Source: an archaeon
GTDB taxonomy: Archaea; Hydrothermarchaeota; Hydrothermarchaeia; JALTZZ01; JALUTC01
Direction: 5' to 3'
Assembly (NCBI GenBank): GCA_027051265.1
Contig: JALTZH010000244.1
Location: 1 to 8,266, forward strand
DNA: 8,266 nt
This document shows, piece by piece, positions 2,127 to 5,502 of the stretch (the stretch's first letter is position 1; every line of letters starts with the position of its first letter). The notes under the pieces are model-generated. The model was not told the origin of the DNA, did not search any database, and saw only the letters and a program-made list of their open reading frames with translations. The position numbers were made by a program, and so were the translations under genes.

Positions 2127-2991
2127 ATATAATTTTTAAATACTTAGCTAATAGGAATAATGTCTTTTGGAACTCTTCGTTATAATCACAGCTTATCATA
2201 TATTTTGAGAGGGAACTACTTAAAAAGTTATAGAGATATCTAAACCTTTTGATTGATTTTGGAAACCTAACGAAGATGTTTCCATGCTTCATTTTATCTA
2301 AAATTTTAATCAAGAAGCTGTGAAGCATCGTTAAGCAATTCCTAGATAAGTTATAATCCTTAACATCTTTATATATCATAACAAGTAAGTTTGAAAATCT
2401 CTCATCATCTAATCTAAGGATTGAACCATCAACGTATATGAACAAATCTTTTCTGTTGGTCTTAAGTATTTCGACAAATTCTTTTAGTTTTGGTAGAATC
2501 AAACTTTCGTAATCCGTTTTGAGATGTATAACGTTGGAAATATTTTCCACGTTTTTGTATAGAAGAATTCCAAACTTATATACATCTGAGATAAAACCTA
2601 TGGAGGAATATTTCCTTATATAATTGTTACATTTCTCACAAATGAACTCATGTTCTATTGCTTTATCACATACTTTACAATTACGTGTACCAATTCTTAT
2701 GTTGAAAATTTTTGGCAAAATCGTTACGTTTTTGTAAAAAACTTTAGGTATACAGATGTTCATCGTTTCGAATATTTTTGTTAGATATCTTTCAAGAGTT
2801 CCTTTATCGAAATTCTTAATATGGAACGTATATGTATTCATTTTGTATCCTAAAAATTTCGCACCATGATTTTCAAGAAAGGAAAATAGATTTCTCCTCA
2901 TTTCTTTAAAAATCTCGTATCTTATTGGTATAAAATTTTTGTTCAAAAATAAGTATCTCTCCAAATTATCGAACACCACTGTTATTCTCAT
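2107..2991 (-). CDS. Miniature Cas10-like protein with zinc finger, no HD domain and no GGDD motif
   Basis: A 294-residue protein whose order of elements resembles the core of Cas10/Csm1. Residues 1-100 look like a first palm-like domain: strand ITVVFDN, helix 24-40, strand TYTFHIKN (53-60), helix 65-77, then a strand. This parallels the Cas10 order of IQ-FIF strand, helix, GGRFYLLLPN strand and helix. A zinc finger follows with C105, C108, C118 and C121 (CxxC-x9-CxxC), placed as in Csm1 between palm 1 and palm 2. A second half has strand LFIYVDG (183-189), helix SRNCLTMLHSFLIKIL (about 214-229) and strand NIFVRF where Cas10 carries GGDD; here there is no GGDD, so cyclic oligoadenylate synthesis is not expected. 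There is no N-terminal HD nuclease and no D4 domain; Cas10 is usually 700-900 residues. The ATG overlaps the ABCE1 stop in ATGA, and the gene overlaps the Csm4-like gene by 20 bases. The partnership with a Csm4-like gene strengthens the call. It could instead be an unrelated zinc-finger RNA-binding protein. Confidence 0.45.
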   Translation of the reverse strand: MRITVVFDNLERYLFLNKNFIPIRYEIFKEMRRNLFSFLENHGAKFLGYKMNTYTFHIKNFDKGTLERYLTKIFETMNICIPKVFYKNVTILPKIFNIRIGTRNCKVCDKAIEHEFICEKCNNYIRKYSSIGFISDVYKFGILLYKNVENISNVIHLKTDYESLILPKLKEFVEILKTNRKDLFIYVDGSILRLDDERFSNLLVMIYKDVKDYNLSRNCLTMLHSFLIKILDKMKHGNIFVRFPKSIKRFRYLYNFLSSSLSKYMISCDYNEEFQKTLFLLAKYLKIIYEEFYC

Positions 2992-4736
2992 ACATAGTAA
3001 TATTCTCCCAATTTCTTTTGATACCTATCCATTTTACTTCCAGGTTTATTAACTCTTGGTCTCTTCGTATCCTTATCCCTTCTAAAAGTTATATCAAGCG
3101 TTTTCAGAAATATGTTCATACCTTCTCTCATAGATAATGGTTTAGAAGCATATCCTCTTCTCTCAGGTTCTCCTGTAAACACTATTAACTTATCGGAAAC
3201 GTAATCTATTAAGATGAGATCGTGATCTACAACGAAACATAAAGCCTTTCTTTTTTCAATTATTCTTCTTATAATTTTGGCAACGTTTAACCTTTGTTCT
3301 ACATCGAGATATGCAGAGGGTTCATCTATCAGATATATATCCGCAGGTTTTGATAGGCATGCAGCGATTGCAACTCTTTGTAACTCTCCACCACTTAGGT
3401 TACGTAGGATTTTAAACCTTATATCTTCGATACCTAATTGTTTGTAAATTTCTGTATGGAAGAGTTCATCCTTTGGTATCTTCTTAAAAAATTCTTCAAC
3501 GGTTAAATCCGAATCGAGTTTTATGTACTGTGGTTTATATGATACGGATGCCTTTCTTTCTATATCACCAAAATCTTGTTTTAATTCTCCAGCCAATATT
3601 CTTACAAAAGTTGTTTTTCCTATAGAATTAGGTCCAAGAATTCCGATTATTTCTCCTTTATGAAATTCTCCCGATTCTGCTTCAAGAGAAAAACCATCGT
3701 ATGATTTCTTTATTTTTGTATATCTTAGGTAAATCTCGGGTTTTTCTTCTCTTAAATCCTTTCTTTCAAAAAATCTTATCGCTGCATCTCTGAATCTAAC
3801 ATTTTCGTCCTTTATATATCCTTCGAGATACATGTTTATACCTTCTCTCGTAGATTTTGGATTTGATACTATTCCATATACTCCAGGTTTTCCGTAAAGT
3901 ATTACAACATTATCCGCAATATAATCCAGAAATATTAGATCGTGTTCAACAACTATAACAGTCTTTTCATCTTTTAATAGCTCTCTTATTATTTTTGCAA
4001 TCTTTAATCGTTGAGATACATCCAAATAGCTGCATGGTTCATCAAATATATAAACATCGTAATCTTTCAAAAGGCATGCGGCAATTGCTAATCTTTGTAA
4101 CTCTCCTCCACTTAATATTGTTACATCTCTTTCCATTACATTCTTTAGTTCCAATTTTTCAACCACTTTATCCACGTTTCCACCTAATCTTTCAAGAACA
4201 TCCTTAACCTTACCTTTAACATACTTTCTGATCAAATCCACGTGTTGAATTTTATGAACAACTTTAATCTTTCCTTTGTATAAATTGTTGAAATAATCGT
4301 AGAGTTGAGTGTTCTTAAAAGTTTTAAGCACATTATTTTTATCGGAAGAATTCCTGCCGAAATTTGGTATGATCTCTCCTGAAAATATTTTTAGAAGTGT
4401 TGTCTTACCCAAAGCGTTTTGTCCAACAATACCAAGAGCCATTCCCTCTCTAAGGTATGGTATGCGATATAATCTGAAACCATTTATCCCATATTGATGA
4501 ATCTTAAACTTATCATACTCATCTGGTAAAGATACGATACCAATTGCTCCAAACGGACATTTTTTAACACATAAACCACATCCGGAGCATAAGTTTTCCT
4601 TTATTATAGGTCTTTTCTCATCGTCAGAAAAAACTATGGCTTCCTTTCCAGTTTTTAACATGGGGCAATATTTGAGACATTCTCTTGAACACTTTTTTGG
4701 TTGGCATCGATCCTTTTTTAAAACTGCAATTCTCAT
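2988..4736 (-). CDS. abce1: ABCE1/RLI ribosome-recycling ATPase
   Basis: A 582-residue ABCE1, the iron-sulfur twin-ATPase that splits ribosomes into subunits after termination, working with aRF1 or Pelota in the cytoplasm. The N-terminal ferredoxin-like domain has all eight cysteines (C11, C16, C20, C24, C50, C53, C56, C60) for two 4Fe-4S clusters. NBD1 has Walker A GQNALGKTT (105-113), signature LSGGELQR (208-215), Walker B FDEP (232-235) and H266. NBD2 has Walker A GPNSIGKTT (369-377), signature LSGGELQR (448-455), DEP (472-474) and H506. Two hinge segments (about 288-305 and near 535-550) and the C-terminal GEYYYV ending are family hallmarks. Length is close to the usual ~590-600. NBD1 is somewhat divergent, with QNAL in Walker A, IQHVD at the Q-loop and DEPCSYLD after Walker B, but no catalytic residue is missing. 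The ATG at 4736 starts at the conserved MRIAVLKKDRC. It leads an operon with the Cas10-like and Csm4-like genes, and a C/D sRNA lies just upstream on the same strand. Confidence 0.97.
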   Translation of the reverse strand: MRIAVLKKDRCQPKKCSRECLKYCPMLKTGKEAIVFSDDEKRPIIKENLCSGCGLCVKKCPFGAIGIVSLPDEYDKFKIHQYGINGFRLYRIPYLREGMALGIVGQNALGKTTLLKIFSGEIIPNFGRNSSDKNNVLKTFKNTQLYDYFNNLYKGKIKVVHKIQHVDLIRKYVKGKVKDVLERLGGNVDKVVEKLELKNVMERDVTILSGGELQRLAIAACLLKDYDVYIFDEPCSYLDVSQRLKIAKIIRELLKDEKTVIVVEHDLIFLDYIADNVVILYGKPGVYGIVSNPKSTREGINMYLEGYIKDENVRFRDAAIRFFERKDLREEKPEIYLRYTKIKKSYDGFSLEAESGEFHKGEIIGILGPNSIGKTTFVRILAGELKQDFGDIERKASVSYKPQYIKLDSDLTVEEFFKKIPKDELFHTEIYKQLGIEDIRFKILRNLSGGELQRVAIAACLSKPADIYLIDEPSAYLDVEQRLNVAKIIRRIIEKRKALCFVVDHDLILIDYVSDKLIVFTGEPERRGYASKPLSMREGMNIFLKTLDITFRRDKDTKRPRVNKPGSKMDRYQKKLGEYYYV

Positions 4737-4749
4737 ATAACTAAACTAC

Positions 4750-4757
4750 TATAATAA
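4750..4757 (-). promoter_or_regulatory. TATA-like box directly before ABCE1
   Basis: On the - strand TTATTATA ends 14 bases before the ABCE1 ATG, which would give a start of transcription at or just inside the start codon (leaderless). No Shine-Dalgarno-like sequence precedes the ATG. The box abuts the D box of the C/D sRNA, so it may instead be only the sRNA 3' flank, with ABCE1 expressed from the sRNA promoter. Confidence 0.35.
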
Positions 4758-4810
4758 CATCAGAGAATGGATGATTCATCATTTATCAGATTTCCTCGGC
4801 ATCATCATCC
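4757..4810 (-). ncRNA. C/D box sRNA (2'-O-methylation guide)
   Basis: Read on the - strand the elements occur in canonical order with canonical spacing: box C ATGATGA (4802-4808), 12-base guide TGCCGAGGAAAT (4790-4801), box D' CTGA (4786-4789), 3-base spacer, box C' ATGATGA (4776-4782), 12-base guide ATCATCCATTCT (4764-4775), box D CTGA (4760-4763). Such RNAs assemble with L7Ae, Nop5 and fibrillarin and direct methylation of the target base paired to the fifth guide base before D or D'. The D guide is complementary to GAAUGGAUGA, a segment conserved (from memory) in domain IV of archaeal/eukaryotic large-subunit rRNA, with guide bases 2-11 pairing. Four perfect boxes and two equal guides make chance unlikely. 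A terminal stem is weak or absent, as in many archaeal sRNAs. It ends about 24 bases before the ABCE1 start codon. Exact RNA ends are inferred. Confidence 0.88.
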
Positions 4811-4829
4811 AATATTGATTCTATTACTT

Positions 4830-4850
4830 AACATTATTTTAAACAATGTT
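4830..4850 (-). promoter_or_regulatory. Promoter of the C/D sRNA inside an inverted repeat
   Basis: TTTAAAATAAT on the - strand (4843-4833) is a good archaeal TATA box, centred about 26 bases before 4812, just ahead of box C at 4808; that is the expected position for a promoter starting the sRNA. The box is bracketed by a 6-base inverted repeat, AACATT (4830-4835) and AATGTT (4845-4850), which could be an operator for a repressor blocking TBP. It may also drive the downstream ABCE1 operon by read-through. Confidence 0.5.
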
Positions 4851-4929
4851 TAACTTCATGTTTTCTATCAAAGAGTACAAAGTTACCTACAAGATCTATC
4901 GACTCATCGAATAATTAAGTATCATATAC

Positions 4930-4940
4930 TTATAATTTAA
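4930..4940 (+). promoter_or_regulatory. TATA-like box of korC
   Basis: TTATAATTTAA lies about 17-27 bases before the ATG at 4957, giving transcription start at or close to the ATG (leaderless mRNA). A second AT-rich box, TTTATATAAATA (4945-4956), touches the ATG and would start transcription inside the gene, so it is less likely. No Shine-Dalgarno-like sequence is present, in keeping with a leaderless transcript. Confidence 0.4.
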
Positions 4941-4956
4941 TTTTTTTATATAAATA

Positions 4957-5502
4957 ATGAAGTATGAAATTAGATTTGCTGGATTTGGAGGACAAGGAAT
5001 CGTAACAATGGGAATCATATTAGGTAGAGCTGCAGTAATATACGAAGGCCTAAATGCAGTTCAGACTCAAAGTTATGGACCTGAAGCAAGAGGTGGAGCT
5101 TCGAGAAGTGAAGTTATTATATCTAGTGAACCAATATATTATCCAAAAGTTCGTAAGCCAGACATTTTTGTATGCATGTCTACACAAGCCTTGGATAAAT
5201 ACATGAAAGATTTAAAGGAGAACGGTATTCTTATTTATGATTCAAGTATAATTAAAAACGAAATATTATCAAACAAATATAAAATATACAAAGTACCAGC
5301 AACCAAACTCGCTTTCGATATGTTTAAAAGAACGGTTGTTGCCAACATAATAATGCTTGGATTTTTAATTAAAATAACTAAGATAGTATCTTACGAGAGT
5401 TTAAAGAAAGCAATACTTGATGTTGTACCAAAAGGTACTGAAGAGATGAATATGAAAGCGTTGAATGTTGGTTATAATTTTAGTGAGAAAAAACAAAGTT
5501 GA
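4957..5502 (+). CDS. korC: 2-oxoacid:ferredoxin oxidoreductase gamma subunit (2-oxoglutarate type, KorC/KorG)
   Basis: A 181-residue gamma subunit of the coenzyme-A-dependent 2-oxoacid:ferredoxin oxidoreductases. These cytoplasmic thiamine-diphosphate enzymes interconvert 2-oxoglutarate and succinyl-CoA with ferredoxin. Seen: FAGFGGQGIV (residues 7-16) and the hallmark QSYGPEARGGASRSEVI (38-54), followed by YPKVRKPDI, all characteristic of the KorC branch rather than PorG or IorB. Length matches the family (~180-190). The ATG at 4957 begins with the KYEIRFAG strand leading into the GFGGQG loop, so no later start is possible. It faces away from ABCE1 and is followed by a histone gene, with no alpha, beta or delta subunit in the window. 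Normally korC sits next to korA/korB, so the partners must be encoded elsewhere, or this gamma subunit serves another oxidoreductase. Confidence 0.9.
   Translation: MKYEIRFAGFGGQGIVTMGIILGRAAVIYEGLNAVQTQSYGPEARGGASRSEVIISSEPIYYPKVRKPDIFVCMSTQALDKYMKDLKENGILIYDSSIIKNEILSNKYKIYKVPATKLAFDMFKRTVVANIIMLGFLIKITKIVSYESLKKAILDVVPKGTEEMNMKALNVGYNFSEKKQS

Follow-up and report, generated by a model that had tools for sequence, protein, structure and literature searches.

A probable archaeal C/D box guide sRNA gene upstream of ABCE1 with predicted targets in 23S rRNA

Introduction

Archaeal double-guide C/D box sRNAs direct fibrillarin to the base that lies five nucleotides upstream of the D or D' box. 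The sets from S. acidocaldarius, Pyrococcus and Pyrobaculum are the closest systems with which the present locus can be compared. They have the same boxes, two 12-nt guides and a 3-nt linker, and they likewise have 23S rRNA targets that follow the N-plus-five rule and genes placed no more than 25 nt from a protein gene. Here we analyse a stretch of 8,266 nucleotides of archaeal DNA (the window), which contains an sRNA locus without any architectural difference from these sets. Our overall reading, to which we assign a probability of about 0.88, is that the minus strand at 4808-4760 carries the gene for an archaeal C/D box sRNA with two guides, for the 23S rRNA positions equivalent to U1971 and, most likely, C1314.

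Sequence and conservation of the sRNA gene

The minus strand of the window reads, from 4808 to 4760, ATGATGA TGCCGAGGAAAT CTGA TAA ATGATGA ATCATCCATTCT CTGA (Table 1). The boxes agree with the consensus RUGAUGA for C and C' and CUGA for D and D', and they follow one another in the order C-D'-C'-D; the two guides have 12 nt each, the usual length being about 10-12 nt, and the linker between D' and C' is short (3 nt). The preliminary description had recognised a C/D box sRNA with four perfect boxes and two 12-base guides, which the sequence confirms, and to this we add the strand, which had not been given. The gene lies in an intergenic gap of 220 bases (4737-4956) with no open reading frame over it, and a mature RNA of probably about 50-60 nt is predicted.

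Table 1. Features of the sRNA locus and of its neighbours, in window positions
Feature	Position	Strand	Basis or predicted target
Core of the C/D box sRNA gene, from C to D box, 49 nt	4760..4808	-	sequence, orthologue, sub-threshold Rfam matches
C box ATGATGA	4802..4808	-	sequence
D' guide TGCCGAGGAAAT, 12 bases	4790..4801	-	23S C1314 equivalent as predicted target; other candidates near 894 and 1036
D' box CTGA	4786..4789	-	sequence
D'-C' linker (TAA), 3 nt	4783..4785	-	sequence
C' box ATGATGA (sister species: GTGATGA)	4776..4782	-	sequence and comparison
D guide ATCATCCATTCT, 12 bases	4764..4775	-	predicted target 23S U1971 equivalent, GAAUGGAUGA
D box CTGA	4760..4763	-	sequence
ABCE1 (Rli) gene	2988..4736	-	Fer4_RLI E=1.1e-11, ABC_tran E=1.8e-41
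2-oxoacid:ferredoxin oxidoreductase gamma subunit gene, divergent neighbour	4957..5502	+	POR E=3.4e-40

We found just one further genome of the genus ('archaeon isolate S146', hereafter G001), and it carries an orthologue at the same place, between the ABCE1 and POR-gamma genes. It is located on contig JALUTC010000219.1 (L053 536-584, minus strand), reads ATGATGA AGCCGAGGAAAG CTGA AAA GTGATGA TTCATCCATTCT CTGA and has all four boxes. Over the 49-base core 44 of the 49 positions are identical in the two genomes, and the five differences fall on base 12 of both guides, base 1 of the D' guide, one base of the linker and the R of C', with bases 2-11 unchanged in both guides. The upstream intergenic sequence has diverged, and ABCE1 is 80% identical in the two genomes. 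Boxes and guides were thus found conserved among relatives in one genome, G001. A search among 61 genomes found the D guide unmutated in the two genus members only, and a search with the D' guide gave mostly scattered matches with three mismatches.

With regard to chance, a search for the fixed architecture with up to three mismatches gave a single match in the window and none in 200 dinucleotide shuffles; a looser version of the motif had no match in 2000 dinucleotide shuffles of the window. Rfam families of archaeal C/D sRNAs match exactly the same stretch and strand, namely sR45 (E=0.0017), sR5 (E=0.0044) and snoPyro_CD (E=0.02), all at scores short of the gathering scores (28.7 of 40, 27.0 of 40 and 27.3 of 45 bits, respectively). 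The alignment to sR45 (RF01274) covers the full length of the C/D structure, and GCCGAGGA is common to the D' guides; assignment to this family was rejected, because the score of 28.7 falls below the gathering score of 40 and the D guides are unrelated. Minimum free energy folding of the sRNA was no better than that of shuffles, as computed by a program that has no k-turn model, and a terminal stem is almost absent from the flanks. A TATA-like sequence, TTTAAAAT, which precedes the C box by about 27 nt, was considered as a promoter and rejected; since it is not conserved in G001, which has a second, divergent sRNA there, we claim no promoter for the sRNA.

With the strict architecture, the window's genome yielded 12 sRNAs and G001 yielded 22, with none in either genome for a reversed-pattern control, and the same pattern gave 0-2 per genome in other class members. 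The number of C/D sRNAs rises with growth temperature (PMC4644070), and the counts of 12 and 22 versus 0-2 fit this trend and point to a hyperthermophilic genus. As a positive control, all 68 guides of the genus were compared with class rRNA, and 12 of them formed at least 10 pairs where 1.05 were expected from shuffles. Moreover, the window's genome encodes both fibrillarin (E=3.3e-95) and L7Ae (E=2.1e-54). The fibrillarin gene (L138, G000:C209) is preceded by a gene for an archaeal Nre protein, not Nop5.

Taken against these data, a chance motif that gives rise to no RNA product appears extremely improbable. Such a reading can draw on the sub-threshold Rfam scores and on the fact that expression of the sRNA is predicted from sequence, but it has to contend with the absence of matches in 2000 shuffles, the syntenic conservation of boxes and guide cores, and the many sister genes. 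The gene looks real and specifies an ordinary sRNA of a well-known RNA type. Gene callers usually miss guide RNAs of this type, to which a well-supported member is here added.

Predicted target of the D guide

The window's assembly, G001 and the same-order genome G002 all lacked matches to models of 16S and 23S rRNA; with the species' own rRNA absent from the assembly, target sites were judged in the 23S rRNA of class relatives. According to the preliminary description, bases 2-11 of the D guide pair in domain IV of 23S rRNA and the methylated base is the U of GAAU. Both proposals are borne out at the level of prediction. The complementary sequence, GAAUGGAUGA, is present at the place named there in the 23S rRNA of five of seven class species versus none of 13 other archaea, all 13 of which differ inside its ten bases. 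It stands in the context GCAUGAAUGGAUGAACGAG of domain IV (5/7 class members), and two class members have other sequences at the site, GAAUGGACGA and GAACGGAUCA. The D guide forms 10 consecutive pairs there, base 5 included, which was equalled or exceeded by 14 of 1500 shuffled guides; for the D guide of G001 the corresponding figures are 11 pairs and 3 of 1500. The fifth-base rule points to the U of GAAU, the equivalent of E. coli U1971, as the predicted site of methylation, and in the 23S rRNA of class relatives the fifth guide base before D and before D' finds a Watson-Crick partner.

Besides the copy in the sRNA, the window's genome contains a single further copy of GAATGGATGA, on contig C14 (L001) and with no similarity to 23S rRNA; the frame that holds it is, as judged by eye, probably carB (carbamoyl-phosphate synthase).

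The predicted site falls in a region, helices 68-71 of domain IV, that is an archaeal hotspot of predicted methylation sites (PMC4644070; PMC7994747). A literature search found no report of methylation at U1971. By numbering, we take position 2314 of yeast 25S rRNA to be E. coli U1971, apparently the same universally placed uridine. Yeast 2314 is a pseudouridine guided by the H/ACA snoRNA snR86 (PMC8307265), whereas the window sRNA belongs to the C/D class and is predicted to guide 2'-O-methylation, so that in yeast a different chemistry appears to act on this domain IV uridine.

Candidate targets of the D' guide

The D' guide, for which the preliminary description gave no target, also fits 23S rRNA. 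In three of seven class 23S rRNAs it forms 10 pairs with UUCCUCGGCA, at the position equivalent to C1314 and with base 5 among the paired bases, and at least 10 pairs were reached by 8 of 1500 shuffled D' guides. This target forms the 5' strand of a domain III hairpin whose two strands covary (CCUCGGC/GCCGAGG and CCUCAGC/GCUGAGG), and pairing with the guide would also keep the hairpin open during assembly.

It should be underlined that the target of the D' guide is ambiguous. Class 23S rRNA contains CCUCGGC at three places, four of the seven class members have CCUCAGC at 1314, and two other sites compete with 1314: near 894, G012 carries AAUUCCUCGGCA, where the fit is equally good (10 pairs), and near 1036, G022 and G008 carry GUCCUCGGC, with 8 pairs. 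It is accordingly possible, if clearly the less favoured outcome, that the locus is a genuine C/D box sRNA of which one guide, most likely D', is an orphan or aimed elsewhere, leaving either U1971 as the sole target or 894 or 1036 in place of 1314. Against this, 1314 is the site that offers 10 pairs in the most relatives, and the UUU that precedes CCUC at 1314 in G022, G012 and G008 complements the AAA of the guide; near 894 and 1036 the fit is weaker or shared by fewer relatives. In the main texts of the literature examined we found no description of a guide pair for 1314 and 1971.

In the reading that we prefer, with U1971 and most likely C1314 as targets, the C and D boxes of the sRNA would form a kink-turn and the C' and D' boxes a kink-loop, and an sRNP would be assembled as the folded RNA binds L7Ae and Nop5 and recruits fibrillarin. 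If the rRNA of this species has the same sites as that of its relatives, bases 2-11 of the D guide, AUCAUCCAUUCU, would pair with GAAUGGAUGA in domain IV, and the U that corresponds to E. coli U1971 would be 2'-O-methylated. The D' guide, UGCCGAGGAAAU, would most likely pair with (U)UUCCUCGGCA on the 5' strand of the domain III hairpin, with the C that corresponds to E. coli C1314 as the base to be methylated. In this manner, an archaeal lineage represented by metagenome assemblies would gain one or two predicted sites of 23S methylation.

Position of the sRNA upstream of ABCE1

The D box lies 23 nt from the ABCE1 ATG in the window and 13 nt in G001, on the same strand. Since the sRNA and ABCE1 share their strand and only these 23 nt separate D box and ATG, the sRNA either forms part of the ABCE1 leader or heads a transcript shared with ABCE1. 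Many archaeal C/D genes overlap a protein gene or sit no more than 25 nt away from one, and most have no promoter of their own and are processed from longer transcripts (PMC7994747). The distance of 23 nt before the ABCE1 start codon fits this pattern, and the sRNA would probably be excised from a longer transcript that runs on into ABCE1.

The same position could be explained by a cis-acting element, in which L7Ae binds the C/D fold of the ABCE1 leader as a k-turn and translation of ABCE1 is thereby tuned, whether or not the fold also serves in methylation. Besides the short distance to the ATG in both genomes, precedents can be cited for such an arrangement, as Sulfolobus L7Ae represses its own mRNA via a k-turn in the 5'-UTR (PMC5539422) and C/D genes that overlap the 5' end of an ORF reduce its expression (PMC7994747). 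We nevertheless consider this explanation unlikely: both guides are conserved and match 23S rRNA, which a mere k-turn would not need, the ABCE1 loci of more distant class members showed no C/D motif, and C/D genes within 25 nt of their neighbours are common without any need for a regulatory role (PMC7994747). A combination of two jobs, with the sRNA guiding 23S methylation while L7Ae-bound k-turns in the ABCE1 transcript set the amount of ABCE1, seems quite improbable. If true, it would tie rRNA modification to ribosome recycling, ABCE1 being a ribosome-recycling factor.

Other guide RNAs and neighbouring reading frames

The survey of the genus also brought up guide RNAs of unusual organisation. 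In the window's genome, L161 612-707 (G000:C256:1511-1606) contains four guide modules in a row, which form two fused C/D sRNAs, the D box of the first overlapping the C box of the second (CTGATGATGA). The first guide of this fusion, AGGAGGTGATCA, forms 11 pairs with the 3' end of 16S rRNA, GAUCACCUCCU, at the anti-Shine-Dalgarno sequence in all eight class 16S rRNAs examined, and its base 5 presumably corresponds to C1533 by E. coli numbering. A triple-guide unit with a period of 26 bases and shared boxes (C-guide-D-C-guide-D-C-guide-D, two guides being usual) was found in G001 at L160 595-669 (G001:C112:1794-1868).

The POR-gamma gene of G001 is flanked by two more C/D sRNAs, L053 609-657 and 1184-1232, both on the plus strand; in the first the D box overlaps the POR-gamma start codon (CTGATG), and in the second the C box lies over the stop codon. 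L053 609-657 is divergent from the orthologue of the window sRNA, with 24 bases between the two C boxes, and L053 1184-1232 corresponds to an sRNA that the window's genome carries on another contig (C78:489-537).

Another C/D sRNA, with the D' guide core TGATGGGCGA and the D guide core CCCTATGAGC, is class-wide, being present in most class genomes (e.g. L069-L071, L073-L077, L079, L080 and L084). Its copy in the window's genome (G000:C12:5418-5466) has kept the D' guide, and the D guide is replaced by TCCCTGGAGTAG, a case of guide swapping. At L083 (G001:C2:5587-5635) a C/D sRNA apparently follows directly downstream of a tRNA-Ala gene, like known tRNA-sRNA dicistrons.

Downstream of ABCE1 in the window, two ORFs on the minus strand (1449-2126 and 2107-2991) encode products of 225 and 294 aa without a Pfam match. 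The N-terminus of the 225-aa product (SDTIYGSI) bears a likeness, by eye, to RAMP-type CRISPR proteins.
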